Part shown: in pieces, positions 41,115-64,000 of the stretch
How positions within the stretch are numbered: position 1 is the stretch's first letter
Layout of the letters: each line of letters starts with the position of its first letter
Assembly (NCBI GenBank): GCA_030123565.1
Contig: CP126122.1
Location: forward strand, 1,871,001 to 1,935,000
Origin: Nitrospira sp.
Lineage (GTDB): Bacteria; Nitrospirota; Nitrospiria; Nitrospirales; Nitrospiraceae
Length of the DNA stretch: 64,000 nt
Direction of reading: 5' to 3'
Translations under genes and position numbers: made by a program
Notes under the pieces: model-generated
The model's input: the letters and a program-made list of their open reading frames with translations, nothing else
What the model was told of the DNA's origin: nothing
The model's database searches: none

Positions 41115-41115
41115 G

Positions 41116-42690: not shown

Positions 42691-42730
42691 CGCATCGCAC
42701 CCTTAAAAAATGGGTTGGTATGCAGCATGA

Positions 42731-44356: not shown

Positions 44357-44747
44357 TATTGCCTTCACCGCCGGTTTGTCCATCCGCCCCCAACGAAACG
44401 ATCTCGTAATCACCGCGAGGGCTCGGATGTCTATACTTATAGGGAGTTCCCCAGGGATCGTTGGGTATGTTCGGCATATAGCCGCCGGTCTTCCATTTTC
44501 TCGGTACGATACCGACCGTTGGCCGATCAACGAGCGCTTTCAATCCCTGTTCGGTGCTGGGATACACACTGTTGTCCAGTTTATAGAGTTGCAACGCGCC
44601 TTCGATGCTTCTGATCTGAACCTTCGCAGCGTCATGCCTTGCATCATCCGAGCGATTCACGATTCTCGGAATGACAAGGGCGGCCAGGACGGCCAGAATC
44701 GCGACCACGATCATGACCTCAATGAACGTAAAGCCCTTTTCATTCAT
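44319..44747 (-). CDS. gspG: Type II secretion major pseudopilin GspG
   Basis: A 142-residue major pseudopilin. MNEKG is cut before FTFIEVMIVVAILAVLAALVIP. The head has the calcium-site region and signature of GspG: YPSTEQGLKALV, PNDPWGTPYKY and VSLGADGQTGGEG. It builds the shaft of the pseudopilus. Length and motifs are fully typical. It starts 3 bases after gspF. Confidence 0.97.
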   Translation of the reverse strand: MNEKGFTFIEVMIVVAILAVLAALVIPRIVNRSDDARHDAAKVQIRSIEGALQLYKLDNSVYPSTEQGLKALVDRPTVGIVPRKWKTGGYMPNIPNDPWGTPYKYRHPSPRGDYEIVSLGADGQTGGEGNNADITNWNLDKD

Positions 44748-44750
44748 AAT

Positions 44751-45974: not shown

Positions 45975-45980
45975 GGCGGT

Positions 45981-47696
45981 TTACAGATCGATTTCGTGCT
46001 GCATGATCCGCATGACTTCCTCCGTCGCGGTCAGGCCTTGGAGCACCTTGCTCGCGCCTTCTTGCTTGAGTGTTTTCATGCCTTTTTTCATCGCCGCCTG
46101 ATGAATCACATTCGAATCGGCCTTCGAGACGATAAGCCGGCGGATTTCGTCGTCGACAAGGAGAAATTCATAAATCCCGGTCCTGCCTCGATAACCGGTG
46201 TGATTACACTCGCGGCATCCGCTCCTCCGATAGAATGGACCCACGTCATCCCCATGATCGACGCCCAATTTCATCAACTCCTCACGTGTCGGCCGATAAG
46301 GTTTTCGACAGTGGGTGCACACCAGACGCACGAGTCGCTGCGCGACGATGGCAACGACCGATGAAGCAACGAGAAACGGCTCAATGCCCATGTCGATCAG
46401 GCGGGTAATCGCCCCGGCCGCGTCATTGGTATGAAGGGTTGAAAAGACGAGATGCCCGGTCAGGGACGCATGGATCGCGATTTCAGCGGTTTCGGCGTCA
46501 CGGATCTCACCGACCATAATCACGTCCGGATCCTGCCGGAGAATCGATCTCAAACCAGCGGCGAACGTGAGAGCGATCTTCGGATTGATTTGCATCTGGT
46601 TAATCCCTTGAAGCTGATACTCCACCGGATCTTCGATCGTGATGATGTTCTTGTCTGGCTCGTTGATATGGCTCAGCGCGGCATAGAGGGTTGTCGTTTT
46701 TCCGCTGCCCGTCGGCCCGGTGACGAGGAGGATACCGTGATTGAATTGGATGAGCTGCCTGATGAGCGCCAACTTCCGATCCGAAATGCCGATTTCCGAA
46801 AGGCTCAGCAGGCGGTTCTCTTTTTCGAGCAGCCGCAGGACCACCCGTTCTCCATGTGAGGTCGGAATCACGGAGACGCGGAGATCGACATCCTTGCCGG
46901 CCGTGCGGATTCTGAACCTGCCGTCCTGCGGAAGGCGTTTTTCGGCGATGTTCAGGCCCGCCATAATCTTGATGCGAGCGATGATGCTGGCTTGGAGTCG
47001 CTTCGGGGGAGACAGAACCGGATAGAGCACACCGTCAATCCGATTTCTCACCATCAAGCCTTTCTGGTACGACTCGAAGTGAATATCGCTTGCGCGGTTC
47101 TTGGCAGCTTGGAACAGGAGACTGTTGACCAAGCGAATCACCGGGGCTTCGTCCGCCGCATCCAATAAGTCTTGCGGCTCATTCAAATCGTTCGCCAGAC
47201 GATCGAGGTCTTCGTCGGAGGAGAGGTCTTTCATGACCTCTTCGGTTGTTCCGCTCGCTGCTCGGTCATAGGCCTGATTCAGACAGGCTATCAGCGAGGC
47301 CGGAGTAGTTATGACCGGGCGAACCTGGCAACCCAGCAGCAACCGGAAGTCGTCGAGCGCGTCCAACTCCAGAGGATTGATGACGGCCATAACGACATAT
47401 CCCTGTTCCTGGTAGAGCGGCAACATGCAGTACCGCCTGGCAAATCCTATGGGAATCTTCGCCACCAAGCTTGCGTCGATCATGGCGTTGTCGAGCTGAG
47501 GCACCCAGGGAAGCTCAAATTGAATGGACAGCGCCTGGAGCAGATCCTCCTCACGGATCAGCCGTCGTTTGAGCAGAAGTTCGCCCAGTAACCCTCCTTT
47601 GGTCGTCTGTATCTCCAATACGTCATTAAGCTTACCCGAGGGTAAGCCGAACTTTTCGCATAAGATCTCACCCAACATTGGACATCCATAGCTCAC
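45981..47696 (-). CDS. gspE: Type II secretion ATPase GspE
   Basis: A 571-residue ATPase. The N-terminal MSHA-type/N1E domain (about 1-150) is followed by the ATPase core with Walker A TGPTGSGKTTTLYAAL, the Asp box ITIEDPVEYQL, Walker B VGEIRDAETAEIA and the His box. The zinc-binding tetracysteine is complete: CTHC and, after about 30 residues, CREC. It powers pseudopilus assembly. The start is a GTG with GGGG upstream; an ATG at 47678 is possible. Confidence 0.96.
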   Translation of the reverse strand: MSYGCPMLGEILCEKFGLPSGKLNDVLEIQTTKGGLLGELLLKRRLIREEDLLQALSIQFELPWVPQLDNAMIDASLVAKIPIGFARRYCMLPLYQEQGYVVMAVINPLELDALDDFRLLLGCQVRPVITTPASLIACLNQAYDRAASGTTEEVMKDLSSDEDLDRLANDLNEPQDLLDAADEAPVIRLVNSLLFQAAKNRASDIHFESYQKGLMVRNRIDGVLYPVLSPPKRLQASIIARIKIMAGLNIAEKRLPQDGRFRIRTAGKDVDLRVSVIPTSHGERVVLRLLEKENRLLSLSEIGISDRKLALIRQLIQFNHGILLVTGPTGSGKTTTLYAALSHINEPDKNIITIEDPVEYQLQGINQMQINPKIALTFAAGLRSILRQDPDVIMVGEIRDAETAEIAIHASLTGHLVFSTLHTNDAAGAITRLIDMGIEPFLVASSVVAIVAQRLVRLVCTHCRKPYRPTREELMKLGVDHGDDVGPFYRRSGCRECNHTGYRGRTGIYEFLLVDDEIRRLIVSKADSNVIHQAAMKKGMKTLKQEGASKVLQGLTATEEVMRIMQHEIDL

Positions 47697-47768
47697 TGAT
47701 ATGACCCCAGTCTGTAGCTATTGGACTTCCAGTCTGTGACATCCCAATCGGCGAAATACAACATCAGG

Positions 47769-49337
47769 TCAACGATCTTTTGGCACTGCGACCTGTGCTG
47801 AATCCTTGATCAAAGGCCGCTGTAGCAGACGGTCGGTTGTGCTTTGAACGTAGGGCGTTTCTTCGATCGCATTCTCTTGCATGACCGGCTCCAGTTCGAG
47901 GTGTTTCTTCACGTTCAACTCGACCATCTGAGCCTCATCCTCGATCACATGCGGCGTCAGAAAGACGAGCAGATTGAGTTTATCAACCTGTTGGGCCTGG
48001 CTCTTGAAGAGCCAGCCCAGCAACGGAATATCGCCGAGGAGAGGAACTTTTCTCTCAACCAGCGTAAGATTATCCCGTACCAGCCCTCCAAGCACGACCG
48101 TCTGTTGATCCGGAACAATGGTGATAGTTTCCATGGCCCGTTTCGTGGTGGTCGGGCCGACAGGAATCTGGGCATTGCCTGACCCGATGGTCTGCGGCAC
48201 GGCATCTGAGATCGCGGTAATTTCCTGCTTCACCTCCATCCTGGTCCGCTTATCTTCCAGAACCTGCGGCGTAATCTCCAGCGTAACTCCGACATCCTTT
48301 CGTTCGATTGTGACCAACGTTCCACCGGTGATGCCCTGTGCCTGTCCTGTGGGAAATGGCCGATTCTCTCCGACAATAATCTTAGCTTTCTGATTGTCCG
48401 CTGCCAGAAGTTGAGGAGTCGACAAAACGTTAGCGTCAGACGTGGCCATGAGCAATTGCAGAAACAGTCGCACCGTAGCAGTGTTGAGCACATTGACCGT
48501 TCCGGCTCCCGACGTACCGGTCGTTCCGGTCCCAGTCAGCAACTGCGCAATCGAGGCGATGTCTTCAGGCGCTCGATTTACCCCTCCCAATGCGAACACA
48601 GACCCCTTTTGAATCAAGGCCAACGCCTGAACCGGATCAATACCGATCGATCGTAAACGATTGAGACTGACCTCCAAGATGACCGCTTCGACGAAGACCT
48701 GATTACGCCGGGTATCGAGCGACTGAATGACCGACACAAGTCGGCCATAATCCGACTTGGTCGCACTCACGATCAGCGAGTTTGTAGGTTTGTCCGCAAA
48801 GACCTGGACCGACGCTTCAAATTCATTCGCCTGGCGTAGCGGTAGCCGCCCGCCGACCGGTGGCGCGGCTACGGAAGACCGTGCGACGACATTGGTCAAC
48901 ACTGCTGCCGTATCATTCGCCAACGCATGTTTGAGTTTATAGACATAGACGTTTCGTTCCGGCGGGGAATCGGCAACTTGGACGATTTGAATGAGATTGC
49001 CTTTAGGAATGGCCGCAAGCCGCCGGACTTCCAACGCCGATAGAAAAATATTGTACGCTTGCTCCGGAGTGACCTTGGTCGATGAAAACACCGTGATCTT
49101 GCCGGTTACCTTCTCGTCCAAGACAAAGTTTTTTCCGCTCAATTCGCTGATGAATCGAATAAACACCTGCAGATCGACTTCATTGAAGTCAAGTGTCACC
49201 GAGCCTGTCCGCTGAATGGGTGCCTGCGCCCAGGTCGAACTCATTCCCAAGAGTTGGATAAACAGCAGCAGCGGGGCAAACACCCAGCATCCGGCGGTCA
49301 ATCCACAAGTCTTCACGATGATCCTCTTACGCACCAA
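47769..49337 (-). CDS. gspD: Type II secretion secretin GspD, short form
   Basis: A 522-residue outer-membrane secretin. The signal peptide (about 1-38) is followed by an N0 domain (VTLDFNEVDLQVFIRFI), one KH-like N domain ending in NSLIVSATKSDYGRL, and the secretin core with VPLLGDIPLLGWLF and LLVFLTPHVIED. Standard GspD has about 650 residues with N0 to N3, so one or two N domains appear to be missing. The tail (about 60 residues) could be a pilotin-binding S domain. A GTG start with GAGGAG upstream is chosen. It lies 76 bases after gspC. Confidence 0.94.
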   Translation of the reverse strand: MVRKRIIVKTCGLTAGCWVFAPLLLFIQLLGMSSTWAQAPIQRTGSVTLDFNEVDLQVFIRFISELSGKNFVLDEKVTGKITVFSSTKVTPEQAYNIFLSALEVRRLAAIPKGNLIQIVQVADSPPERNVYVYKLKHALANDTAAVLTNVVARSSVAAPPVGGRLPLRQANEFEASVQVFADKPTNSLIVSATKSDYGRLVSVIQSLDTRRNQVFVEAVILEVSLNRLRSIGIDPVQALALIQKGSVFALGGVNRAPEDIASIAQLLTGTGTTGTSGAGTVNVLNTATVRLFLQLLMATSDANVLSTPQLLAADNQKAKIIVGENRPFPTGQAQGITGGTLVTIERKDVGVTLEITPQVLEDKRTRMEVKQEITAISDAVPQTIGSGNAQIPVGPTTTKRAMETITIVPDQQTVVLGGLVRDNLTLVERKVPLLGDIPLLGWLFKSQAQQVDKLNLLVFLTPHVIEDEAQMVELNVKKHLELEPVMQENAIEETPYVQSTTDRLLQRPLIKDSAQVAVPKDR

Positions 49338-49413
49338 TCTCCTCTGCCTTTATTGAGGCAAGCGCCAAAGATCACGATCCAGATAATACAAGACTCGTCT
49401 CCGAACCAAGAGG

Positions 49414-49989
49414 TCAATTGATGACGGATCCGGGCGCTTCGTAGCTGGCAGCGTCACGCTGGACTCCAAATGAGTAAGCGCGTTTGACGTTTTGGAGTTC
49501 GAGGAATTCCTGTTGATGCCCTCGCCGAATGAGAATGCCCTCCTCTCGAATCTCGTCAATCTCCCCCACGTTGGGTATCGAGTCGTGAAGGCGATAGAGT
49601 GTCTGTTTTTTCGTGCCGACATCCTCGATCACAGCACGGCGCAATGGTTGGGGTCCAGACGCTGTGCCGATTAACCTCACCTTTGCCGCAGCTTCAATTG
49701 GTGGTTCGGCGGACTGTACGTTTGCAGGCTCAGCCGTCGAGAGAGTTTCCGGCACTCCCCCGGCAGCTCCCTGCGACAACGCCTGCCGAGAATCAAAAAT
49801 CCCGCTGGCCATGATCTCCTCTGCAAGCCGTTGGTAATCGACGCCGGCGCTATCGGAGCTTACGGCTGCGGGGAGGACCTCGCCGACCCTATCCACCTCT
49901 TCTGGCTGAGACATGATCGTCTTGATAAGATGCGCAGCCAGGAGTGCACCGCTCATGATCAGGACGGCTACGAACAACCGTTGAAACAT
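49414..49989 (-). CDS. gspC: Type II secretion protein GspC, without PDZ domain
   Basis: A 191-residue bitopic protein. A single N-terminal membrane helix (about 5-25), a Pro/Ala/Ser-rich linker and a homology-region domain (about 105-170: KVRLIGTASGP, RRAVIEDVGTKKQTLY, GILIRRGHQQEFLEL). Standard GspC ends in a PDZ or coiled-coil domain; none is present. It links GspD to the inner-membrane platform. It is first of the gsp genes, 93 bases after the PRC-barrel gene. Confidence 0.85.
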   Translation of the reverse strand: MFQRLFVAVLIMSGALLAAHLIKTIMSQPEEVDRVGEVLPAAVSSDSAGVDYQRLAEEIMASGIFDSRQALSQGAAGGVPETLSTAEPANVQSAEPPIEAAAKVRLIGTASGPQPLRRAVIEDVGTKKQTLYRLHDSIPNVGEIDEIREEGILIRRGHQQEFLELQNVKRAYSFGVQRDAASYEAPGSVIN

Positions 49990-50651: not shown

Positions 50652-52337
50652 TCAAAAAAAGCTCCGCGGGACCACGAGGATGTCCTCGGGCAAGACGATT
50701 GTTTCCAACGTAACCTGAATCGACTGCTCCTGTCCGTTCACCTTTCGTAGCACCTTCGTGCTGCTTTCCGCTGCCTTATCGGTGAAACCACCAGCCATGG
50801 TAATGACCTTGTGAACCGTCAGGTCCCGCTCATAGGGATAATCGCCCGCTCGCTTCACCTCCCCGTTCACATAGACTTTCCTCACCTGCGGCACCACGAG
50901 AAAGTCATCCGGCAGCACCGGTGCATCCAGTGCAATGTCGATCGGTTGGGCCACGCCGTCTGTCATCCTGGTTACCTTGATTGATCCCCGGTCCGCTTTT
51001 TCTGTCCAGCCTCCGGCTAGACTCAATGCCTTATGTACCGTCATTCCTTTTTCATAGAGGTACCGTCCGGGGGTCTTCACTTCCCCGCTCACATACACGC
51101 GCTGACCCTCTGCCACCACGATGATGTCATCCGGCAACACCAGACTCTCTAAGCCCACAGCTACCGTCTCCTCATGACCATTAACCTGTCGGAGCACTTG
51201 GAAGGCTCCCCGTTCCGCCTTCTCCGTCAGGCCGCCGGCCATCGCCAGCGCCTTGTGGACCGTGAGACCGTCTTTGTGGGGATACCCCCCCGGGGTCTTC
51301 ACTTCCCCGCTCGCGTAGAATTTGTAGTTCTCGGCTTCCACTACAATGATGTCATCCGGCAGTACCGTCGTCTCGGGGGTCACCGCCAGTGTCTCGGCTA
51401 CCCCACCGGCGATTCGAGTCAGCTTGAGTGGCCCCCGTTCTGCCTTCTCGGTCCGTCCGCCAGCCAGGCTGACCGCCTTGTGCACCGCCATTCCTTTTTC
51501 ATAGAGGTATCGGCCAGGGGTCTTCACTTCCCCGCTCACATAGATACGCCGGCCTTCCGTCACCACGATGATGTCATCCGGCAGCAACAGACCATCCAGT
51601 TCGACTGGCAGCGTCTCCTCACGACCGTCAATCTGCCGAAGCACCTGGAAGGCTCCCCGCTCCGCCTTCTCCGTCAGGCCGCCGGCCATCGCCAGCGCCT
51701 TGTGGACCGTCAGCCCATCTTTGTAAGGATACCCCCCCGGGGTCTTCACTTCCCCGCTCGCGTAGAATTTGTAGTTCTCGGCTTCCACTACAATGATGTC
51801 ATCGGGCAGCACTGCCGTCTCGGGAGTCACCGCCGCGGTCTCGACCGTACCGCCGGTCACTCGTGTGAGCCTGAGGAGTCCTTTCTGTGCCTTTTCCGTC
51901 CGTCCACCTGCGACGCTCAATGCTTTGTGAACCGTAAGACCTTCTTCATACGGGTAACCTCCAGGGCTTTTGACTTCGCCACTCACATAGAAATTGCGGT
52001 GTCTGACGATATATGCCGTCACTTTAGGCATCCGAACATAACCACGCGCCAATCGGGCCGTCAGATCATCCTGTAACTCTTGAATAGTTTTTCCAGCGAC
52101 ATGGAGCGGTCCCAACAGAGGGAAATGAATACTTCCATCCCCGTCGATCTTACTTTCGATATTCAAATCCTCTTCGCCATAGACTTGAATGTGCACGAGA
52201 TCATTGACCCCGAGCCGATAACTCTGGTGCGAAGGCGGTGACGTGGCCAAACAGATTGCGGTCTCAAAACAGAGAATCAGTCCTAGACCTAACATCCACC
52301 AGTACCTATCCTGAACTCGACCCGCCATGATGTTCAC
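50652..52337 (-). CDS. Polysaccharide export protein with six SLBB domains
   Basis: A 561-residue exported protein. The signal sequence (about 1-33) is followed by a PES/Poly_export domain (YRLGVNDLVHIQVYGEEDL ... HFPLLGPL), then six SLBB repeats of about 75 residues, each starting like FYVSGEVKTPGGYPY and containing LTVHKAL-x-x-AGG. Wza-type exporters have two or three SLBB domains and a C-terminal outer-membrane helix; this one ends in VVPRSFF with no such helix, and no lipobox is present. Two repeat types alternate (PGRYLYE and PGGYPYK). It is a paralogue of the protein encoded next upstream. Secretion of the polysaccharide made by the locus is the likely role. Confidence 0.85.
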   Translation of the reverse strand: MNIMAGRVQDRYWWMLGLGLILCFETAICLATSPPSHQSYRLGVNDLVHIQVYGEEDLNIESKIDGDGSIHFPLLGPLHVAGKTIQELQDDLTARLARGYVRMPKVTAYIVRHRNFYVSGEVKSPGGYPYEEGLTVHKALSVAGGRTEKAQKGLLRLTRVTGGTVETAAVTPETAVLPDDIIVVEAENYKFYASGEVKTPGGYPYKDGLTVHKALAMAGGLTEKAERGAFQVLRQIDGREETLPVELDGLLLPDDIIVVTEGRRIYVSGEVKTPGRYLYEKGMAVHKAVSLAGGRTEKAERGPLKLTRIAGGVAETLAVTPETTVLPDDIIVVEAENYKFYASGEVKTPGGYPHKDGLTVHKALAMAGGLTEKAERGAFQVLRQVNGHEETVAVGLESLVLPDDIIVVAEGQRVYVSGEVKTPGRYLYEKGMTVHKALSLAGGWTEKADRGSIKVTRMTDGVAQPIDIALDAPVLPDDFLVVPQVRKVYVNGEVKRAGDYPYERDLTVHKVITMAGGFTDKAAESSTKVLRKVNGQEQSIQVTLETIVLPEDILVVPRSFF

Positions 52338-52411: not shown

Positions 52412-54790
52412 TTAGAAAAAACTGCGCGGAACCACGACGATATCTTCAGGGAGAATCATGGTATCCAGACTCACGTGAATCGACTGCTCTTGTCCATTGA
52501 TTTTGCGCAATACCTTTGTGTTACTCTCCGCCGCCTTGTCTGTAAAACCGCCGGCCATCGTGATCACTTGATGCACCGTTAAGCCTCTGTCATAAGGAAA
52601 ATCTCCCGCTCGCTTCACCTCTCCGTTCACATAGACCTTCTTCAACTGCGGTATCACGATAAAATCGTCCGGCAGCATCGGAGCGTCCAACGAGATCTCC
52701 ATCGTCTTGACGCCGTCGTCGGACACACGAGTCACCATGATGGTTCCCTTCTCTGCCTTTTCCGTCCATCCGCCGGCCATACTGAGCGCCTTGTGTACCG
52801 TCATGCCCTTTTCGAAAAGATACCGCCCCGGCGTCTTCACTTCTCCGCTCACATAGAATCGCCTGGCCTCCGCCACCACGACGATGTCATCCGGCAGCAG
52901 CAGGCTGTCCAACTCGACCGGCAACGTCTCCTCATGCCCATTGACCTGTCGGAGCACCTGGAACGTCCCCCGCTCCGCCTTCTCCGTTAACCCGCCGGCC
53001 ATGGCAATCGCCTTATGCACCGTGAGCCCGTCTTTATAGGGATAGCCACCTGGCGTCTTCACTTCCCCGCTCGTATAGAATTTGTAATTCTCTATCTCGA
53101 CCACAATGATGTCATCCGGCAACACCGTCATCTCCGGTTTCGCCGTCAGCGTCTCCGCCACCCCCTTCGTCACCCGCGTCACTTTGATTGAGCCGTTTTC
53201 GGCCTTCTCCGTCCGGCCTCCCGCGAGGCTCAGCGCCTTATGGATGGTCATCCCCGGTTCATAGAGATACCGCCCCGGCGTCTTCACTTCTCCGCTCACG
53301 TAGAATCGCCTGGCCTCCGCCACCACGACGATGTCATCCGGCAGCAGCAGGCTGTCCAACTCGACCGGCAACGTCTCCTCATGCCCATTGACCTGTCGGA
53401 GCACCTGGAACGTCCCCCGCTCCGCCTTCTCCGTTAACCCGCCGGCCATGGCAATCGCCTTATGCACCGTGAGCCCGTCTTTATAGGGATAGCCACCTGG
53501 CGTCTTCACTTCCCCGCTCGTATAGAATTTGTAATTCTCTATCTCGACCACAATGATGTCATCCGGCAACACCGTCATCTCCGGTTTCGCCGTCAGCGTC
53601 TCCGCCACCCCCTTCGTCACCCGCGTCACTTTGATTGAGCCGTTTTCGGCCTTCTCCGTCCGGCCTCCCGCGAGGCTCAGCGCCTTATGGATGGTCATCC
53701 CCGGTTCATAGAGATACCGCCCCGGCGTCTTCACTTCTCCGCTCACATAGAATCGCCTGGCCTCCGCCACCACGACGATGTCATCCGGCAGCAGCAGGCT
53801 GTCCAACTCGACCGGCAACGTCTCCTCATGCCCATTGACCTGTCGGAGCACCTGGAACGTCCCCCGCTCCGCCTTCTCCGTTAACCCGCCGGCCATGGCA
53901 ATCGCCTTATGCACCGTGAGCCCGTCTTTATAGGGATAGCCACCTGGCGTCTTCACTTCCCCGCTCGTATAGAATTTGTAATTCTCTATCTCGACCACAA
54001 TGATGTCATCCGGCAACACCGTCATCTCCGGTTTCGCCGTCAGCGTCTCCGCCACCCCCTTCGTCACCCGCGTCACTTTGATTGAGCCGTTTTCGGCCTT
54101 CTCCGTCCGGCCTCCCGCGAGGCTCAGCGCCTTATGGATGGTCATCCCCGGTTCATAGAGATACCGCCCCGGCGTCTTCACTTCTCCGCTCACATAGAAT
54201 CGCCTGGCCTCCGCCACCACGACGATGTCATCCGGCAGCAGCAAATTATCGAGACCGGCCGTAAGGACGATCTGTTTCCCGTCTATGTTCCGCAGGACAC
54301 GAACCGTGCTTCGCTCTGCCTTCTCGCTCAAGCCTCCTGCGAGACTCAGCGCCTTCCGAACACTCAACCCTTCTTCATAGGCATAACCGCCGGGTGCCTT
54401 CACCTCCCCATTCATATAAATGTTGCGGAACTTCACGACATAGGTCGTCACTTTAGGAGCCCGCACATAGCCGGCTTCCAGACGAGAGGTCAGATAGTCT
54501 TGTAACTCTTGGATGGTCTTCCCTGCGACATGCAAACTCCCGAGGAGAGGAAAGTTAATGTTGCCGTCTCCATCGATCTTACTTTCTGCCTTCAGGTCTT
54601 CTTCGCCGAAGACTTGAATTTTGACGACATCATTGGCGCCTAAACGATAACTCTGGCTCAACGACTGGGACTGAGGTTGAGCTAAACCAACTTCGCTGAG
54701 CAGGGCCGATGTCAAGACCAGGACCAGCACTAACCACCGACGTCGATGACCAACTTCCAGATGGCACCCATCGAAACGTTGCGGTTTCAC
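52412..54790 (-). CDS. Polysaccharide export protein with nine SLBB domains
   Basis: 792 residues from a GTG at 54790, which has AAGGAG upstream; the frame is open to 54904 but that part is not signal-peptide-like. A signal peptide (about 1-37, RRRWLVLVLVLTSALLS) leads to a PES domain (LGANDVVKIQVFGEEDL) and nine SLBB domains of about 75 residues. Three 149-residue double units are identical or almost so, encoded by the 447-bp repeats at 52818-54242. It ends in VVPRSFF. It shares no lipobox or terminal helix with Wza. The long string of domains could form an extended periplasmic duct or scaffold. It lies between the SDR fusion gene and the six-domain paralogue. Confidence 0.87.
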   Translation of the reverse strand: MKPQRFDGCHLEVGHRRRWLVLVLVLTSALLSEVGLAQPQSQSLSQSYRLGANDVVKIQVFGEEDLKAESKIDGDGNINFPLLGSLHVAGKTIQELQDYLTSRLEAGYVRAPKVTTYVVKFRNIYMNGEVKAPGGYAYEEGLSVRKALSLAGGLSEKAERSTVRVLRNIDGKQIVLTAGLDNLLLPDDIVVVAEARRFYVSGEVKTPGRYLYEPGMTIHKALSLAGGRTEKAENGSIKVTRVTKGVAETLTAKPEMTVLPDDIIVVEIENYKFYTSGEVKTPGGYPYKDGLTVHKAIAMAGGLTEKAERGTFQVLRQVNGHEETLPVELDSLLLPDDIVVVAEARRFYVSGEVKTPGRYLYEPGMTIHKALSLAGGRTEKAENGSIKVTRVTKGVAETLTAKPEMTVLPDDIIVVEIENYKFYTSGEVKTPGGYPYKDGLTVHKAIAMAGGLTEKAERGTFQVLRQVNGHEETLPVELDSLLLPDDIVVVAEARRFYVSGEVKTPGRYLYEPGMTIHKALSLAGGRTEKAENGSIKVTRVTKGVAETLTAKPEMTVLPDDIIVVEIENYKFYTSGEVKTPGGYPYKDGLTVHKAIAMAGGLTEKAERGTFQVLRQVNGHEETLPVELDSLLLPDDIVVVAEARRFYVSGEVKTPGRYLFEKGMTVHKALSMAGGWTEKAEKGTIMVTRVSDDGVKTMEISLDAPMLPDDFIVIPQLKKVYVNGEVKRAGDFPYDRGLTVHQVITMAGGFTDKAAESNTKVLRKINGQEQSIHVSLDTMILPEDIVVVPRSFF
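52818..54242 (-). repeat. 447-bp tandem repeat encoding pairs of SLBB domains
   Basis: Three full units and a part of a fourth follow each other at exactly 447-bp spacing, for example at 52846, 53293, 53740 and 54187. By eye the units are identical apart from isolated bases, such as CACGT versus CACAT at one boundary. Each unit is 149 codons, so the frame is kept. Confidence 0.9.
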
Positions 54791-54974
54791 GTGGATTCTC
54801 CTTCGAGTGCGCCGGTGGGATACAAGGCGCATATCTCGACACGGTAGGTTCAACTTGAACGCGGAGAAGATCGGCAACGCTTGTTCAGTGGTGTAGATAT
54901 GCACGATCGGAATGAGGTCTGCAACGGCTTGCCAAGAGCAACGCGCGAGGAAGGCCTTTCGATATACCGCCGCA

Positions 54975-56558
54975 TCAACTCGCTGCGCTGACCGTGGAAC
55001 CTGTGTCCAATGGGACGGTCTTAATATTCATCAGATCTACCGCCCATCCCATTTCTCGTCGCATGAGATTGGAGTTATGTTCTTCGCTGAGAAACGTCAC
55101 GTTGCTGTACATGGGATGCCGATAGTCAGGTACTTCACCTCGTTTCAAAGCAGCGATAACTTGGGTCACCCCCTGTTCCAGCGTCCACTGAGGGACGAAC
55201 TCCAACACCCGCGCGATTTTTGTAAAATCGACTCGATAATTGCGAAAATCTGCGCCGGCCTCCTGCTCCGTCACAACCGTGCCAGGAACCAATGATCGAA
55301 TAATCTGCGCGACGTCTCTCAGCTGATAATTTTGTGCGTTGGACCCCACATTGAAGACTTGATTGTGAATGAGTTCTATCGGCGCCTCAACTGCGTTCGT
55401 TAACGCCAAGGCGGCATCATCGACATGCACGAACGGTCTCCATTGGTCCGCACCGAAGACATAGAGTTTTCCATCCGCGAGGGCTTTGGCAGTCAACAAA
55501 TTCACCACTAAATCAAATCTCGTGCGTCCTGAAAGTCCATAGACCGTGCCGAAACGAAGAATGACGGGAGAGAAAACGTCGCTGGCCAATGGCATCAATA
55601 CCCTCTCCGACGCCAACTTGCTTCGTGCGTAGAGAGAAAGCGGATTCACGACGGACCGTTCGTCCAGCGTTTCCTCGTTGGAGCCGAACACGGAACACGT
55701 ACTTGCAAAGTAGAAGCGTTTGATCCCGCTGCCCTTCGCCACCTCGGCCACCATTCGGGTCGCGATCAAATTCACTTCGATGGTCAATTCCTCATCCAGA
55801 GAACAGGCTTGGTCGCCGACAATGGCCCCTAGATGGATGACATCATCCACTCCTTTCATGGCGCGGACAACCTTGTCCATGTGCCGAAAATCACCCTGAA
55901 TGATTTCAAGGTTTGAATAGCCTGCGAGGTTGGCTATAGGCTCCTTTCCAAAAAGGAGCAAATCGAACAACCGCACCTCATACCCCCGCTGCAGCAATTT
56001 CGGCAGCAGCGCTGATCCGATAAATCCCGCCCCGCCGATGACGAGGACTCTCCTCGTTCCCTGCCGCGTGATATTCGGCCCATGCGCGGCTGGTTCGCGA
56101 TCATCAATCGCTCTCCAAATCATAGTCCACAGCCGTGCGACAATGAGTTCCGCGCATGTCAGAAACCAGCCGATGAACAAAACGCTGCGAGGGAGCGAGA
56201 CTCCGACGCGTAAGAAGAAAGAGACAAATCCAAAGATGAGATAGCTCAAACTGACCCCTTGGGCGACGACGAGTGCTTTATAGTGCCCCTCATAATATCT
56301 TCCGCGTGTGTAAAATCCGCTGCCGTAAAACACTACGACCGAAATGAGCGTAAGGAGCCAAACGCTAGCCACATATTCATCAACATATTCCATCAGAACG
56401 TTCTGTGGCGGTCCATTTCCCTGTATCCCGATTTCAAAAATAAACCGTACCACCAAGGCCGAAGCCCAGGCTCCGTTCACCATCATGGCGTCGGCCGCAA
56501 TCCGCGCCCACGTCTTCGGCGACAGACATGTCCTTCCGGCTGCTCTCATGATCGTCAC
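54975..56558 (-). CDS. CapD-like membrane domain fused to an SDR epimerase
   Basis: A 527-residue protein. Residues 1-150 have four membrane helices (about 24-44, 66-82, 95-116, 122-145) of the kind found at the N-terminus of CapD/WbpM and of polyprenyl glycosylphosphotransferases, including LPRSVLFIGWFLT. The usual CoA-binding-like domain is missing. From 170 an extended SDR begins: VLVIGGAGFIG (175-181 in the glycine motif), the Asp in LFDLL, FASTCSVFG and the catalytic YARSK. It is most like NDP-sugar epimerases or dehydratases. It overlaps the aminotransferase gene by 4 bases (ATGA), so they probably act in one nucleotide-sugar pathway. Confidence 0.85.
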   Translation of the reverse strand: MTIMRAAGRTCLSPKTWARIAADAMMVNGAWASALVVRFIFEIGIQGNGPPQNVLMEYVDEYVASVWLLTLISVVVFYGSGFYTRGRYYEGHYKALVVAQGVSLSYLIFGFVSFFLRVGVSLPRSVLFIGWFLTCAELIVARLWTMIWRAIDDREPAAHGPNITRQGTRRVLVIGGAGFIGSALLPKLLQRGYEVRLFDLLLFGKEPIANLAGYSNLEIIQGDFRHMDKVVRAMKGVDDVIHLGAIVGDQACSLDEELTIEVNLIATRMVAEVAKGSGIKRFYFASTCSVFGSNEETLDERSVVNPLSLYARSKLASERVLMPLASDVFSPVILRFGTVYGLSGRTRFDLVVNLLTAKALADGKLYVFGADQWRPFVHVDDAALALTNAVEAPIELIHNQVFNVGSNAQNYQLRDVAQIIRSLVPGTVVTEQEAGADFRNYRVDFTKIARVLEFVPQWTLEQGVTQVIAALKRGEVPDYRHPMYSNVTFLSEEHNSNLMRREMGWAVDLMNIKTVPLDTGSTVSAAS

Positions 56559-57781
56559 CTTCTGTACGCAGACGTTACGGCTTGAACCGAGTCAATGACA
56601 TCATGGACATCGTCCTCGGTCATGCCGGGATAGAGCGGCAGTGACACGATCCTGTCATAGAGATATTCGGCCTGTTTCAGATCGCCATGACGATACCTGT
56701 ATTGTTTCTGATAATAGGGATGCAGATGAACGGGGATGAAGTGCACGCTCGTCCCGATGTTTCGAATTCGAAGCGCCTCAATGAATTGCGCACGGTCGAT
56801 CGTCATTCGTTCGAGCGCCAATCGGATCACATACAGATGCCAGGCATGCGTGCGTGTCGGATGCACCAGCGGCGTCTCGACTTCCGGAATATCACGAAAG
56901 ACCTCCGTATAGAGCCGCGCATACCGTGCACGTGTTTCGATGAACCCGTCGAGCTTCTTGAGCTGGTGAATTCCCAAGCTGGCCTGAATGTCGGTCATGT
57001 TACATTTGTACCCCGGCTCCAAGACTTCGTAAAACCAGCTCTCGGAGCCCATGTATCGTTTCCATGCGTCTCGATTCATTCCGTGCAGCGTCAACAAACG
57101 CATGCGCTCGGCCAGCGTACCATCCGCCGTTGCAATCAGACCCCCTTCACCGGTGGTCAGGTTCTTGATCGCATAAAAACTGAAGCATACGACATGTCGT
57201 TCCGAACCGTAGACTGTGGAGTGCCGAGCGTCGCCTATCTTCATGCCTCGGTATTCCGCGCCGGTGGCATGTGCAGCATCTTCGATCACGGCAAGGTTGT
57301 GCCGACGAGCGACTTCATAAAGCGCCTTCAATTCGCAAGCCTGTCCGCTATAGTGCACCAGCATGACGGCCTTCGTGCGGGGCGTAATCGCTCGTTCGAC
57401 CGCCTCAGGCGTGACGTTGAAATCCTCCCCGACATCGATCAATACAGGCCGCGCGCCCAGGTGCACGACGACATTGGCGGAAGCGCAAAACGTCAGTGTC
57501 GGAACGATGACTTCGTCGCCCGGCCCGACCCCTAAAGCCGTGAGTGCAATATGGAGGGCGGCCGTGCAGGAGCTCACGGCGATGGCATAGGGCGTTCCGA
57601 CATACTGCGCGAATGCGTCCTCAAATAGTTTGACCTTGGGACCTGTCGTGATCCAACCGGAACGAAGCGAGTCGACGACCTCCGCGATTTCCTCTTCTCC
57701 TATGGAAGGCAGCGCGAATGGAAGAAAGTTTGATCGTGAGACTGCGAACGAGTTTTTCAGCAGCATATCCTTCACTTTCAA
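56555..57781 (-). CDS. DegT/DnrJ/EryC1/StrS aminotransferase
   Basis: A 408-residue PLP enzyme of the sugar aminotransferase family. The PLP lysine is in SFYAIKNLTTGEGGLI, with VIEDAAHATGA as the cofactor aspartate motif and SSCTAALHIAL the N-terminal loop. It converts a keto-sugar nucleotide into an amino sugar. Its stop overlaps the start of the SDR fusion, which may make its keto substrate. An alternative start at the sixth codon (MLLKNSF) is possible. Confidence 0.94.
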   Translation of the reverse strand: MKVKDMLLKNSFAVSRSNFLPFALPSIGEEEIAEVVDSLRSGWITTGPKVKLFEDAFAQYVGTPYAIAVSSCTAALHIALTALGVGPGDEVIVPTLTFCASANVVVHLGARPVLIDVGEDFNVTPEAVERAITPRTKAVMLVHYSGQACELKALYEVARRHNLAVIEDAAHATGAEYRGMKIGDARHSTVYGSERHVVCFSFYAIKNLTTGEGGLIATADGTLAERMRLLTLHGMNRDAWKRYMGSESWFYEVLEPGYKCNMTDIQASLGIHQLKKLDGFIETRARYARLYTEVFRDIPEVETPLVHPTRTHAWHLYVIRLALERMTIDRAQFIEALRIRNIGTSVHFIPVHLHPYYQKQYRYRHGDLKQAEYLYDRIVSLPLYPGMTEDDVHDVIDSVQAVTSAYRR

Positions 57782-57880
57782 GAGAGATGAGGTGTGTGAC
57801 CAGCGACCGTCGTGCCGACAGACTGACCAGTGCGAGATAAATTGGAGCGCGCCGGGGCTCGTACCTGTTGAGGCCCGACC

Positions 57881-58783
57881 TCAGCGGGTGACGGTTCCGA
57901 GCATGCGGTTGAATGTTCGCTTGGCGGTGACTCCCCAGCGAGTATCTTTCAGACCGATGGCATCGCAAGACCCATCAAGCAGGCGCGCGAAGGTGAACCG
58001 TCCGAAAGGCTCCACCATGTGACGACGGAGCCATTTGCCGCTGCGCAGACGGGCCACGGTGTTGGATCCGGTAAGCGTGACGAATGAAGCGAGGTAGCCG
58101 GCCTCTTCGACCATATCCTCCAAACGCTGGCTGAAATCTCCTGAAGCGCCCTTGGGATAACTGAAGAACCGGACAGCCGAACCGAGCCGATCTTCAATAA
58201 GCGCCCTGGAGGAAACTATCTCGTTCCTTGCCATCTCAAGAGGAAGTGTCGTCAGCACACGGTGGCTCCTGGTGTGAGAACCGATCGTAAACACGTCCTG
58301 CATGGCCCGGATGTGGTCCCAATCGAGTGCAGGGTTCGGCATGGGAAGGCGCTCGTCGTGTGGGAATGATGTGGTGGTTCCGATATAGTCTGTGGCGGGG
58401 AACAAGATGGCCTTTAATCCCATGCTTTGAAGAACGGGATAGGCGTTCTCATAGACATCTCGATATCCGTCATCGAACGTGATGAGCACCGCCTTGCCGG
58501 GAAGCCGCCCCCCATGTGCCACCACCCCTATCAAATCTTCCGGCGAGATGACCGTATAGTGTTCCGTGAGAAACCGTAACTGACGCGCAAACAGATGAGG
58601 CGTCACCGACAGGGTATTACCGGGGATCTCATTAATCTTGTAGTAAATGAGAATGCGAAGTGCCGGCGCGGATCCAAGCACCTGCGCAGCCGACGTCATA
58701 CCGGAAAGCAGTGATGTGCCGCCCAACAGCGTGTAGACCATATTCTTGATCCGCTGCTTTCGGATGACTTGTTTCGTAGTCAC
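57881..58783 (-). CDS. Polysaccharide deacetylase (NodB domain)
   Basis: About 300 residues. The NodB motifs are clear: TFDDGYRDVYENAYPVL (metal-binding aspartates), SHTRSH (the two histidines) and FFSYPKGA (the arginine/proline motif). It removes acetyl groups from N-acetyl sugars of a polysaccharide. The start is uncertain: GTGs at 58825 and 58783 and an ATG at 58741 are in frame; 58783 gives KQVIRKQRIKNMVYTLLGG, a plausible cytoplasmic or membrane-proximal lead. Its gap to the methyltransferase is short and the direction is the same. Confidence 0.85.
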   Translation of the reverse strand: MTTKQVIRKQRIKNMVYTLLGGTSLLSGMTSAAQVLGSAPALRILIYYKINEIPGNTLSVTPHLFARQLRFLTEHYTVISPEDLIGVVAHGGRLPGKAVLITFDDGYRDVYENAYPVLQSMGLKAILFPATDYIGTTTSFPHDERLPMPNPALDWDHIRAMQDVFTIGSHTRSHRVLTTLPLEMARNEIVSSRALIEDRLGSAVRFFSYPKGASGDFSQRLEDMVEEAGYLASFVTLTGSNTVARLRSGKWLRRHMVEPFGRFTFARLLDGSCDAIGLKDTRWGVTAKRTFNRMLGTVTR

Positions 58784-58841
58784 GATGAGACTGTTTAAAG
58801 AGAAATGCCAATCGCCCTGCCGCACTCGTTCGGTTCGGACC

Positions 58842-59759
58842 TCACGCAGGAAGCAATGTGACCTCAAATCCAAAGACCCGCAATTCTTCTTCCGGCATCG
58901 TCCGAAACGGTAGAACGAGCTTCCGTCGTGGTATCGGGACTTCGTCCCACCGCTTGACCGCGACAACCGTCACCTTGAATCCGGCGCGTCGGAACACGGT
59001 CAGCATGTCGGAATACCGTAGCCGGTTGGCATAAAACCCGCACCGCGCAACAGCATCGGATTCCCATATCGAATCGCGGAATCGTAAATGATGAAGCTCC
59101 TTGACGAACAGGTCGGAAAGATCCACGACATGAGAGCACAGGCCGTCGTCCTTCAAGACTCGACGGAGTTCGCGCATGGTATCCAGCAGTTCCGCTCGTC
59201 GTACGCTCTGAAGCACTGCCTGGGACCAGATGAAGTCTACGGATCGCGAGGGAATGGCGCGGAGGGACGACAACCCGCTTGATCCGTAGGTTGCACGACA
59301 GAGCGGCAACAAATCGCCGATGGAAGTCACCCGCTCCACAGGTGGAGCGGGCAGGCCTTGACGACGAACAAATGATGCCATTTCTGCATACTTCTTGAGA
59401 TCCTTCACGGCAAAGTCTCCGACGTCGATCAGATAGGAGGCGGAAACTCCGACCGCAGAAGCAATCACGGCTGAAAAAAGGGAATCGCCTGGCCCGAGTT
59501 CCAATGCAACGATTTCTTCGGGACGTTTCGTCGCTCGAACTTTGTTGAAGTGACGGGTGAACACTTGAAAAGCATACGATGGATCTTCCATACGACCATG
59601 TTCAAATACGCCTAACCTGTGCCAAAAGTTGTATCCGCAAGGCAGACGTGAAGGCGCTATTCTCCCCGCCATCTTGACCCACCAGGGAGTTCTGGACTTC
59701 AACGTCCGCAGATCAATGAGACTCCCCTGCCTCAACCTCTGGATATAGGACGTATTCAT
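58842..59759 (-). CDS. SAM-dependent methyltransferase-like protein
   Basis: About 305 residues from the ATG at 59759; a GTG at 59903 would add 48. ALELGPGDSLFSAVIAS is a class I methyltransferase glycine motif, SRSVDFIWSQAVLQSV matches the acidic loop and post-motif II, and RELRRVLKDDGLCSHVVDL is the typical region after it. It probably methylates a sugar or carries out a related reaction in the polysaccharide pathway. The N-terminus (PCGYNFWHRLGVFEHGRMEDP) is shared by exopolysaccharide-locus methyltransferases. No substrate can be told. Confidence 0.75.
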   Translation of the reverse strand: MNTSYIQRLRQGSLIDLRTLKSRTPWWVKMAGRIAPSRLPCGYNFWHRLGVFEHGRMEDPSYAFQVFTRHFNKVRATKRPEEIVALELGPGDSLFSAVIASAVGVSASYLIDVGDFAVKDLKKYAEMASFVRRQGLPAPPVERVTSIGDLLPLCRATYGSSGLSSLRAIPSRSVDFIWSQAVLQSVRRAELLDTMRELRRVLKDDGLCSHVVDLSDLFVKELHHLRFRDSIWESDAVARCGFYANRLRYSDMLTVFRRAGFKVTVVAVKRWDEVPIPRRKLVLPFRTMPEEELRVFGFEVTLLPA

Positions 59760-59955
59760 CGCTCCGTCTATGCCGAGCAGCAACCCCGGCTTCCTTCCGG
59801 CCCTGGATAGAAAAGTAATTTGACGCGTACTCCTCTCGGATAAAGCCTCATCCGATAAGTACGATTCGGAATCGACCCTCAACGTCGGCGTGACACCCGC
59901 CACAATCTTGCTCGGTGCAGCCCGCTCATTAACGCATCACCTGTTCGGAAGACGC

Positions 59956-61188
59956 TCATCGATGGTCATGAATAAAGGGGGCGGGGTCAGATCGCCCATA
60001 GGTGCCGGTACCATACACGGCATCATGGTAATCAGAAATGGATGCAGTGTTCCGGCCATCTCCTAACAGCCACTGATACGCCGAAATCGTTTCCTCTGCG
60101 ACATGACGCGCGTCAAACTCCTTCACGACGATTTCGCGGCCTCGCAATCCCATCCTGTCCCGCAAGGCCCTATCGTAAATGAGCGTTCTAAGGGCTTGCG
60201 CCAGTGCCTGGGGATCTCGCGGCGGCACAAGCAATCCGTTCTCCCCATCTCTTACGATCTCTCTGCACCCCCTTACGCGGGTCGCAACAAGCGGTCTCGC
60301 GCAGGCCGCGGCCTCCAAAAGTACTTTCGGCAGTCCCTCTCCATAGGAAGGCAGCACTGCGATATGGGAGCCCGCGAAGATTTTGGCCATGTCATCTTGG
60401 TGTCCCCACCATTCGACAATCCCTTCGGCCTGCCAACGTCTAAGCTCGATTTCGGTATAGGTAGACGGATTTTCCCTATCGACTGCCCCCACTAAGGCTA
60501 GCCGCGCTCGGACGCCTTCCTGCTTCAATAGTCTGGCGGCCTCGAGAAATTCACCGACTCCCTTATCCCGTAACATTCGAGAGGCAAGGACCACGACGGG
60601 CTCCCCATCGGGCTGTGGAGATGGACTGAAATCGGAAGTATTGACACCAGCTCCGCGAATAATGAGCGCCTGGGACATCCTCACAAGGCCGGCCTCCACG
60701 AAGTCTTTACAGTCTTCCGTATTCTGAAAAATGACGACGGAACGAGGATGTCCCATCGCCCAGCGTAAAACGGGCTTGACGCCTACGCGGAGCAACCTAC
60801 GACGAGAGGAGTCGCCATTGTTCATATAGCCTAGGCCGGTAACGGCATTCACGATCGCCGGCACTCGGGCCAACCGCGCCGCAGTCGCCCCGAACATGAT
60901 CTGCTTGAGTGCAACGTGATGAATGATGTCGGGTCGCACACGACGATACAGCCGGATGAGCTCCACGAGAGAGCCCAATTCGTAGAGAGGTGACTGTATC
61001 CCTCGCCGTAATCGAATCGGCAGGAGTGTGAATTCTTCCTTTTCAATCTGCTTGGCATGCCGCTGAACCAGCGTGCCGACCGAGACTTCAAATCCTGAAT
61101 CCCGCGCTGTCCGAGCAAGATCGAGCCGATGTGAGCAGAAATAGGAATCATCATCGACGATATACAGGAGACGCGGCCTTCTACCCAC
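59956..61188 (-). CDS. Family 4 glycosyltransferase
   Basis: A 410-residue GT-B enzyme. The N-terminal RPRLLYIVDDDSYFCSHRLDLAR and the C-terminal nucleotide-sugar domain with ASRMLRDKGVGEFLEAA and the retaining-enzyme E-x7-E motif in EGLPKVLLEAAAC place it in GT4. It adds a sugar to the growing repeat unit on the inner membrane face. The GTG start has GGAGGG seven bases upstream. A stretch of about 45 residues after the fold (NTASISDYHDAVYGTG) is not usual. A 223-base gap without a visible gene separates it from the sugar transferase upstream. Confidence 0.92.
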   Translation of the reverse strand: MGRRPRLLYIVDDDSYFCSHRLDLARTARDSGFEVSVGTLVQRHAKQIEKEEFTLLPIRLRRGIQSPLYELGSLVELIRLYRRVRPDIIHHVALKQIMFGATAARLARVPAIVNAVTGLGYMNNGDSSRRRLLRVGVKPVLRWAMGHPRSVVIFQNTEDCKDFVEAGLVRMSQALIIRGAGVNTSDFSPSPQPDGEPVVVLASRMLRDKGVGEFLEAARLLKQEGVRARLALVGAVDRENPSTYTEIELRRWQAEGIVEWWGHQDDMAKIFAGSHIAVLPSYGEGLPKVLLEAAACARPLVATRVRGCREIVRDGENGLLVPPRDPQALAQALRTLIYDRALRDRMGLRGREIVVKEFDARHVAEETISAYQWLLGDGRNTASISDYHDAVYGTGTYGRSDPAPFIHDHR

Positions 61189-61411
61189 GAAGCACCCTCC
61201 TTGAGTCAGGGACAGGAGACATCGACACTGACCGATCGGCGACTATCCCCCACGATGGACGAATCGGACAGAGATCCCATCGCAACATTCTCCGGGAAAG
61301 AAACCTGTGAGGCAGTCCACATGGCGGCGACCGGGCGCAAGTTCGAATGACGTTCCGCACAGTGCCACCGATCACATCGCGTATCTCGCGCTGCACCAGG
61401 CTGCTCGAGAT

Positions 61412-62083
61412 TCACAGGTGGTGTCGGAACCGATGAGTGGTCGCCGCCTCAGCGGACGGAGAGCCTTTCGGAAGGTCCGTCGCCTCAGCGGCGCCTCCCG
61501 GAAACAGGCGCCATAGCGTCCTGAGGATCAACAACAGGTCAAAGCCCAGCGACGAGCGCCGCATATATTGTCTTGCCAGTGCCAACTTGTCCGGAAGAAT
61601 GTCACGCACGTATCTCTCTTCAGGATCGTCCGACCCCGCCAGTAACACCGATTCGTCGCGATATTTCAGCGAGGCGAGGTCTGTCAGCCCCGGACGAATG
61701 GTCAAAATCGTTTCGTACTCACTCCGAAACATTTCCACATATTGTCTGACTTCAGGCCGTGGTCCGACCACACTCATGTCGCCTTTGAGGACATTGATCA
61801 GTTGCGGAAGTTCGTCGAGTTTCGTTCGTCGAAGAAACGTCCCGACCGTCGTCACTCGCGGGTCACCCGTAGCCGTAAGGAGCCCTCCTCTTCGAGCGGC
61901 ATCCTGAACCATGGTTCGAAACTTATAGATCCTAAAGGGCCGGAACCCTTTGCCGATCCGTTCTTGACGGAAGAACACCGGGCCAGCCGAGTCATGTTTG
62001 ATCATGGCTGCCACCATGAGGAATACGGGGGCAAGCACCAGCAGGCCGCAGATGGACATCACGAGGTCTGCCATGCGTTTCAT
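61412..62083 (-). CDS. Initiating sugar transferase (WcaJ/PglC-like)
   Basis: A 223-residue phosphoglycosyltransferase. One N-terminal membrane segment (about 5-27), then [20 protein letters not shown] and [20 protein letters not shown] and [11 protein letters not shown], all motifs of the bacterial sugar transferase family. It transfers a sugar phosphate from a nucleotide sugar to undecaprenyl phosphate to begin repeat-unit synthesis. It lacks the large N-terminal domain of WcaJ/CpsE, so it is of the short PglC type. The C-terminal 30 residues are Ala/Thr/His-rich and unlike the family. Confidence 0.93.
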
Positions 62084-62246
62084 ATCGTTCCGTTCCCAAA
62101 GCCGGATGCGCGCTCAGGCCGATCGCTGAACGGATCCCCGAATCGTTCAGGCTTGTATGAGCGACGATAAGCGCCATACTTTCAATCGATCGGAGCGGAG
62201 AACTGAGCCTTCTCCCTGCATGCAATTTGGCGCAACGAAAAGGCTC

Positions 62247-64000
62247 CTAGACCGTGGTGGCATAACCTGATGCGGTCGTGACTTCTCTATGCGACACCGG
62301 GGCGATGTCTCTCCAATGAGACGCATCAGAGAGGTTCGAATGACTTTCCCCGGAGAGATGGTCCAATTGAAATTGCCACCGCAAAACAGGAATCTGATGT
62401 CGCGAGCAGAGTTTCATCACCAATCCCAAACGTCCCGCGGGAATCTTACGGGAGGATACGATGACGACGGAGATGTTGAGACAGCCAAAAATGGCGGACA
62501 AATTTCGGCTCGATCCGAGAATACGCACGGATCCGATCTTATGATTGATGAGCTGCGGATCGTCATCAAGAAAGCCTACGGGACACAACCCGAGCCCTTG
62601 ATTTTCCGTCAGTTCACGCAGAATGCATTCGCCGCGTCGTCCAGCTCCATAGATCAGGACATGATCTCCTTGTGCCACGGAAGTCCGGCGTCGAAGGTTG
62701 ACGAGGATCTTATAGGCGCAACACCTGTTCACCAGCAGGATGTACAAGAGCAGGCCATCTATGCCGAACAAGGCGGATATTCCTGAAGGAGGATCATAAA
62801 TGACCGACACCATATACGACAGGAGAACGGCAAGACCGACCGCCATACTGACAGGCAGCAGATCGTCGATGCCTACAATGCGGTTCACATCACGGTAGAG
62901 GCCGAACCCGAAGAAGACGCCGATCTGAATGATGAGAATGCATGGAAATGCGGTCACGTACCATGTCACGATTTCAAGTTCCCTGAGCTCGGAGTACTTC
63001 AACAGAAACGCCGCCCAATATGCAGTCGTGATCAGAAGGCCATCCAAGAGGACAATGAACCGCAACCGTGTGGACACCGCCCGCTCACACCAGCGCAGCA
63101 CGGTCCCGGTTTTTATGAAGGCGACTTCTTCGTACCCCAGTTTACGGATGCCGATGTAGGTTGCGACGATGACCGTCGAGAGAATGACTCCGGCGTTGCG
63201 GTATTGGGCGACGACTGCAAGAATCGCGAGACACGACAACCCGGCGGCGAGCGCGTACAGCGTCAGCACGGCGGATCGCTGGGTAAACCCCAATGCCAGC
63301 AGCCGGTGATGGACATGGTCTCGGTCTCCCTCGAACATGTGCTTCGCTGTGTTCATCCACTTCCTGAAAGCGATGCAGGGTTGTGGGCTCGCCCCAACAC
63401 TGCGAACGGCGCGGCGGACCATGGAGAGGATCGTGTCAAGGATGGGCAAGCCGAACACGAGGAGCGGGATGATCACCGGCAGGGCCGTGGCGCTCTTTTG
63501 AGAGCCGGTCACCGCCGTCACGGCCAGTATGTACCCGATGAACTGGCTTCCGGTATCGCCCAAGAAGATGGAAGCTGGATGGAAGTTATATCGGAGAAAC
63601 CCGATGAGTGCCCCGACAAGAATCAGTAAGAGCAACCCATCCGATGACGCTCCGCCTCCCATGAAAAAAATCGTCGCACTCGTCGCCGCCGCAATGATAC
63701 CTAATCCGCTGGCTAATCCATCCAGTCCGTCGATGAGGTTAAACGCATTGGTAAGGCCCACGATCCACAAAAATGTAAGGGGGATCGTGAGAACTCCCGC
63801 ATCGACCGTGCCGAGACCAAAGATCGAAATCGATTCGATTCGAACACCAAGCCAAATGGTGATCGCGGCGGCAGCGGATTGGAAGAGGAACTTTACCCAT
63901 GCCGGAACAGCACTGAGATCGTCATAAAAACCGACAAGAAAAAGAATGCCTGCCCCCGCCAGCACCGCGGTGGATTCCCGGATGTTTAAATTGCTGCCTC
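62247..64000 (-). CDS. WecA-like transferase fused to CapD-type N-terminal domains (5' end cut off)
   Basis: The frame is open at the right edge, so the true start is outside the window; about 584 codons are visible. Residues up to about 260 are a polyprenyl-phosphate N-acetylhexosaminyl-1-phosphate transferase of the WecA/MraY family (NLIDGLDGLASG, FLGDTGSQFIGY and a loop GDRDHVHHRLL). After a segment of about 30 residues the chain continues with a four-helix membrane domain and a CoA-binding-like Rossmann domain (HVLIYGAGRRGECILREL, GFLDDDP), the N-terminal part of CapD/WbpM. The C-terminal SDR of CapD is absent. The fusion would couple lipid-carrier loading with nucleotide binding. It lies first of the visible polysaccharide genes. 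Confidence 0.88.
   Translation of the reverse strand, partial: GSNLNIRESTAVLAGAGILFLVGFYDDLSAVPAWVKFLFQSAAAAITIWLGVRIESISIFGLGTVDAGVLTIPLTFLWIVGLTNAFNLIDGLDGLASGLGIIAAATSATIFFMGGGASSDGLLLLILVGALIGFLRYNFHPASIFLGDTGSQFIGYILAVTAVTGSQKSATALPVIIPLLVFGLPILDTILSMVRRAVRSVGASPQPCIAFRKWMNTAKHMFEGDRDHVHHRLLALGFTQRSAVLTLYALAAGLSCLAILAVVAQYRNAGVILSTVIVATYIGIRKLGYEEVAFIKTGTVLRWCERAVSTRLRFIVLLDGLLITTAYWAAFLLKYSELRELEIVTWYVTAFPCILIIQIGVFFGFGLYRDVNRIVGIDDLLPVSMAVGLAVLLSYMVSVIYDPPSGISALFGIDGLLLYILLVNRCCAYKILVNLRRRTSVAQGDHVLIYGAGRRGECILRELTENQGLGLCPVGFLDDDPQLINHKIGSVRILGSSRNLSAIFGCLNISVVIVSSRKIPAGRLGLVMKLCSRHQIPVLRWQFQLDHLSGESHSNLSDASHWRDIAPVSHREVTTASGYATTV

Follow-up and report, generated by a model that had tools for sequence, protein, structure and literature searches.

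Class 3 of the OPX proteins was reported from an initial set whose members carry 1-7 SLBBs (PMC9603273), and one or two D2 domains have been described in proteins of this class (PMC9601211). High SLBB counts alone are not new, because members of class 1 with up to 14 SLBBs have been reported (PMC9603273). Each ring of Wza measures ~30 A, Wzc extends ~60 A above the inner membrane, and how class-3 OPX systems bridge the gap between the membranes is an open question (PMC9601211). The periplasm of Nitrospira has been described as wide (PMC3600790, PMC13049253, PMC4070959), and the literature searched contained no numerical value for its width. The OPX gene described here encodes nine SLBBs, as do genes of two other genomes, which places them outside the 1-7 range, a range that is descriptive and not defining (PMC9603273).

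The gene lies in the window, by which we mean the whole 64-kb stretch of DNA analysed (positions 1871001-1935000 of a single-contig 4.62-Mb genome with a completeness of 100%); the genome belongs to the same genus as Candidatus Nitrospira defluvii (G023). With a neighbouring paralogue it forms a pair of OPX genes, with which a ~39-kb exopolysaccharide (EPS) locus ends; the locus reaches to about 1960.6 kb, and the genes upstream of the pair, nearly all on the OPX strand, make up the exopolysaccharide cluster.

54975..63965, minus strand: part of the EPS cluster upstream of the OPX genes
52412..54904, minus strand: OPX gene with a putative signal peptide, Poly_export and nine SLBBs, 830 aa from the first GTG
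50652..52337, minus strand: neighbouring paralogue with Poly_export and six SLBBs, 561 aa

The segment at 54975..63965 encodes an epimerase, a DegT aminotransferase, a deacetylase, a methyltransferase, a GT1, a bacterial sugar transferase and a GT4 (WecA-like), while the EPS locus as a whole contains glycosyltransferases, Bac_transf and a Wzy_C protein. Set against a Wzx/Wzy-dependent locus, it has an initiating transferase (Bac_transf), a polymerase protein (Wzy_C) and a PCP with kinase, the flippase being represented only by a MurJ-like candidate. The locus also encodes a Wzc-type co-polymerase of 760 aa with a tyrosine kinase domain, which adjoins the genome's only match to PF10082 (BBP2_2), an outer-membrane protein of the EpsL/PEP-CTERM type whose assignment as a beta-barrel is taken from the family model only. 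This barrel is also single per genome in N. defluvii and in the related species G003, where ~31 kb separate it from the OPX genes. An antiterminator of the UpxY/RfaH family (L115 5103-5648) opens the EPS locus, at the end opposite the OPX genes. On the other side of the OPX pair, a type II secretion block (39600-49989; GspC, GspD, GspE and GspJ-type) separates the pair from a block at 34.5-39.4 kb. The OPX genes of N. defluvii, G003 and the genomes G002 and G069 directly adjoin the counterpart of the latter block, and the GspD relatives found elsewhere in these four genomes are only ~30% identical, so that the secretion block looks like an insertion in the window lineage. The same genome has a further OPX with several SLBBs, of a different kind (G000:C1:22300-24000; L046 6362-9133), as a 924-aa ORF with Poly_export, several SLBB matches and a hydrophobic C-terminal segment.

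We identified the domains of the nine-SLBB protein by comparison with Pfam. Poly_export (PF02563) scored 80.9 bits against a cut-off of 28, and SLBB (PF10531) matched nine stretches with 402 bits; neither Wza_C (PF18412) nor GfcC (PF06251) was detected in this protein by Pfam. The true start of the gene is probably further in, for example at the GTG of VGHRRRWLVLVLVL. The domains that lie wholly or largely outside the repeats described below are as follows.

54440..54658, minus strand: Poly_export (PES) domain, residues 83-155 (Pfam)
54200..54421, minus strand: SLBB 1, type B, 74 aa, diverged; the array holds only its last 44 bp
52637..52858, minus strand: SLBB 8 (T1), diverged; the array holds only its first 41 bp
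52415..52636, minus strand: SLBB 9 (T2), ending VVPRSFF and followed by no helix spanning the outer membrane

The protein ends only a few residues past the last SLBB strand. By its domain content it is a class-3 OPX, that is, Wza-like with no outer-membrane helix, and the label of export protein given to it in the preliminary description is correct in this sense (Poly_export and SLBB, without Wza_C or GfcC). We also considered identity as a class-1 OPX (Wza) and rejected it, as the C-terminal Wza_C helix is absent. The best PDB sequence match was 9n9a, which is annotated as the class-3 OPX WzaB of Myxococcus xanthus. A structure model built from 12 sequences (pLDDT 74.9, pTM 0.30) predicted Poly_export followed by nine repeats of one strand-helix-strand pattern, and its best fold matches were Wza entries, with 2j58 at the top; the inter-domain certainty of the model is too low to show a stacking of repeats or rings.

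The central part of the gene, from SLBB 2 to SLBB 7, consists of a tandem array. Tandem Repeats Finder reported 52818-54243 with a period of 447, 3.2 copies, 99% matches and no indels, and a base-by-base comparison at an offset of 447 gave the following arrangement.

52818..54243, minus strand: tandem array with a 447-bp unit, 3.19 copies (three plus 85 bp; Tandem Repeats Finder and offset comparison)
53797..54243, minus strand: array copy 1, the 5'-most within the gene
53350..53796, minus strand: array copy 2
52903..53349, minus strand: array copy 3, bearing the sole variant base
52818..52902, minus strand: partial fourth copy, 85 bp, across the junction of SLBB 7 and SLBB 8
54159..54243, minus strand: 85-bp patch identical to 52818-52902, across the junction of SLBB 1 and SLBB 2

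Each unit encodes one 75-aa SLBB (type A) and one 74-aa SLBB (type B), and all units are in frame in the ORF at 52412-54904 on the minus strand. The only variant site in the array is a third codon position, with a G at 53300 where 52853, 53747 and 54194 have an A, and the change has no effect on the encoded residue. The 85 bp in excess of three copies matched perfectly at an offset of 1341, and identity was lost sharply at both borders. We found no direct repeats of comparable quality elsewhere in the 64-kb window, and chance is no candidate explanation for the array. These findings bear out the preliminary description, which had reported three full copies and a partial fourth of a nearly perfect 447-bp repeat, each encoding a pair of SLBBs and almost identical even at third codon positions; the dS that we measured among the copies is 0-0.009. 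It had placed the array at 52818-54242, of which the start is right and the end has to be moved one base further, to 54243. Its remark that the paralogue next door has the same domain style on diverged DNA also holds: the paralogue is only ~77-81% identical and has the order A-B-A-B-T1-T2, its units are about 66-81% identical to the matching array units with a dS of 1.1-1.75, and its own two A-B pairs differ by a dS of 0.68 and are thus older copies. The same comparison bears on whether purifying selection on the sequence of the domains could account for the uniformity. SLBB motifs are conserved at the protein level, as such selection predicts; however, the silent sites within the array are identical and the dS to the paralogue units exceeds 1, and we therefore ruled out this explanation, to which we assign practically no probability.

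The preliminary description further held that the array is either recent or kept uniform, and this agrees with the identical silent sites and with a unit that is present in a single copy at the same locus in a relative. This relative, G069, belongs to another genus of the family and has the same flanking genes around its OPX gene, which encodes five SLBBs in the order B-A-B-T1-T2 (lengths 74/75/74/74/74) and hence a single A-B pair. In this gene a 73-bp patch at the start of A recurs, with 72 matches and at an offset of exactly 447, where T1 begins, and the five-SLBB gene looks like the state before duplication. The preliminary description had also expected the repeat number to vary, between strains, and to alter the length of the protein. 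Since one genome per species was compared, the differences in SLBB number that bear this out are differences between species: at this locus the number is 5, 6, 7 or 9, and other relatives have 1, 2 or 4. At the threshold used, the long OPX type was found in 5 of the 29 genomes of the genus. As a separate observation, three OPX matches in OX638335.1, a gammaproteobacterial MAG (L066, L067, L068), lie exactly 21,399 bp apart, and the surrounding 20.6 kb are 53-83% identical without gaps, so that the spacing would reflect either assembly or a tandem repeat of large size that contains indels.

Taken together, these data point to a class-3 OPX of an EPS exporter that probably descends from a five-SLBB ancestor and whose A-B pair probably increased recently from one copy to three by unequal recombination. 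The ancestral gene of the window lineage would have had the order B-A-B-T1-T2, and the nearly identical patches at the starts of A and T1, 447 bp apart, would have served as substrates for unequal homologous recombination (or template slippage), by which the A-B pair was duplicated in frame; a recent amplification would then have given three A-B copies and thus nine SLBBs. The 85-bp patches at 54159-54243 and 52818-52902 may be a remnant of the recombination site. We consider the amplification recent because of the dS of 0-0.009, the single-copy gene of G069 with its matching patches, and the 85-bp patch of the window gene at the same junctions; furthermore, exact repeats of 55 bp flank a gap in this zone of the OPX gene of G002, which fits recombination there. 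We infer the amplification step from few genomes, and later exchange among the array copies may also have occurred, as conversion is known elsewhere in the family.

An older array that is maintained by conversion predicts the same uniformity as a recent amplification. The window gene and the nine-SLBB genes of N. defluvii and G003, which lie in the same genomic neighbourhood, share one length pattern (74, 75, 74, 75, 74, 75, 74, 74, 73). In N. defluvii and G003, three OPX genes with 2, 9 and 7 SLBBs stand in a row. Within each species the 9- and 7-SLBB genes are nearly identical over their final ~1,050 bp (99.6% in N. defluvii and 99.9% in G003), whereas the OPX genes of the two species are only ~83% identical to each other (differing by ~17%). 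The tracts begin at almost equal positions in the two species, 1053 bp (L037 7070-11576) and 1049 bp (L038 8566-12936) ahead of the stop codon, and end near it, and upstream of them the 9- and 7-SLBB genes differ by a dS of 1 to 2. As identity within species exceeds identity between species, the tracts were copied between neighbouring genes, and this copying continued after the species split. Gene conversion in this OPX family is thus demonstrated for neighbouring genes of two other species, and upkeep of the window array by conversion is possible. Within single genes there is also partial homogenisation: units 4 and 6 of the N. defluvii 9-SLBB gene are 91% identical, and exact runs of 53-95 bp occur.

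These features are what would be expected if the nine-SLBB gene were old, going back to an ancestor in common with Ca. N. defluvii, with its three pairs kept uniform by conversion and its SLBB number unchanged: the number, the unit-length pattern and the neighbourhood are equal, and both conversion between genes and homogenisation within them are seen. However, in a tree built from 224 columns of PES and T1T2, in which the branches of G069 are long, both window genes joined the G069 five-SLBB gene and G002, with the N. defluvii-type genes set apart (98/98), and in a tree of the units no unit of the window array paired with the unit at the same position of N. defluvii. We therefore regard a conserved ancestral nine as somewhat unlikely, because G069 carries five SLBBs, with just one A-B pair, at this locus and because the tree splits the lineages. 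Recent amplification from five SLBBs remains our preferred reading, and under it nine SLBBs may have arisen by two separate expansions, in the window and the N. defluvii lineages, rather than from an old shared number.

The preliminary description had also cautioned that short reads could misjudge the copy number, for which there is one clear case. In the short-read MAG G002, the OPX gene contains a gap of 100 N, each side of which ends in an exact 55-bp repeat, and the gene is split into two overlapping ORFs because of this gap in the array. The ends of contigs inside such genes in G013 and G055 had been considered as further repeat breakage and were rejected, as they have no repeated terminal k-mer. 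In genomes assembled from short reads, the length of multi-SLBB export proteins can be given wrongly. That the window array is itself an artefact, with a true copy number other than three, is suggested by the fact that such arrays do break assemblies, but the genome is a single contig of 100% completeness, the frame is preserved, one copy has a base of its own (the G at 53300), and genes with several pairs are also present in two further genomes that consist of one contig, among them the published N. defluvii chromosome. We consider an artefact very unlikely.

With regard to function, the composition of the EPS locus suggests that the nine-SLBB OPX is likely the periplasmic conduit between the Wzc-type co-polymerase and the EpsL-like beta-barrel. 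Poly_export would form a ring and the nine beta-grasp SLBBs are probably stacked on it as extra rings, which would run from the co-polymerase at the inner membrane to the beta-barrel in the outer membrane; we infer both the stacking and the binding of partners. At the figure for Wza, ten rings amount to about 300 A. A role in setting length is attractive given the wide periplasm of Nitrospira: the SLBB number would be a setting tuned by recombination, nine would have been reached twice independently because ten rings together with an ordinary-sized co-polymerase span this periplasm, and changes in copy number would fit the envelope. We nevertheless consider this quite unlikely, and the idea is weakened because only 5 of the 29 genomes of the genus carry the long OPX type, although a wide periplasm is described for all Nitrospira. 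A form of it in which a long OPX compensates for a short co-polymerase was rejected. In the EPS-locus co-polymerase the two predicted membrane segments start ~420 residues apart, as they do in the large two-segment protein beside the single-SLBB OPX genes of the same genome, and no compensation is seen. Independently of this, relatives with fewer units suggest that these OPX genes acquire segments and overwrite each other through recombination, with a change in the length of the export tube, and ring domains that change by exact in-frame pairs, likely as a series of 5, 7 and 9, provide a natural test of ring number against reach.

Compared with the described systems, the nine-SLBB protein is closest to the class-3 OPX (WzaX/S/B of M. 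xanthus with WzpX/S/B, and EpsY/EpsX), with which it shares the restriction to Poly_export and SLBB and a locus that also encodes a Wzc-type co-polymerase along with a beta-barrel; however, its barrel is ~33 kb away and not adjacent, and two OPX genes stand side by side. E. coli Wza, a class 1 OPX, has the same Poly_export and SLBB folds, in line with the top fold match to 2j58, but it combines two SLBBs with an outer-membrane helix, whereas the window protein has nine and none. A likeness to the export proteins of the EpsE/XrtA type is given by scores above the cut-off for TIGR03028 and TIGR03027, models of 239 and 169 positions made for short OPX, the score here being summed over the repeats. 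The amidotransferase and the outer-membrane protein of the locus also resemble those of XrtA/PEP-CTERM systems; the remaining XrtA-named proteins of the EPS locus fall below their cut-offs, so that membership in an XrtA system is unsupported. In the literature searched we found no paper that joins SLBB and gene conversion. The concerted evolution known from bacterial repeat genes is nonetheless matched in N. defluvii and G003, where paralogues are closer within a species than orthologues are between species, with the difference that the target here is in the OPX family, a periplasmic export channel.
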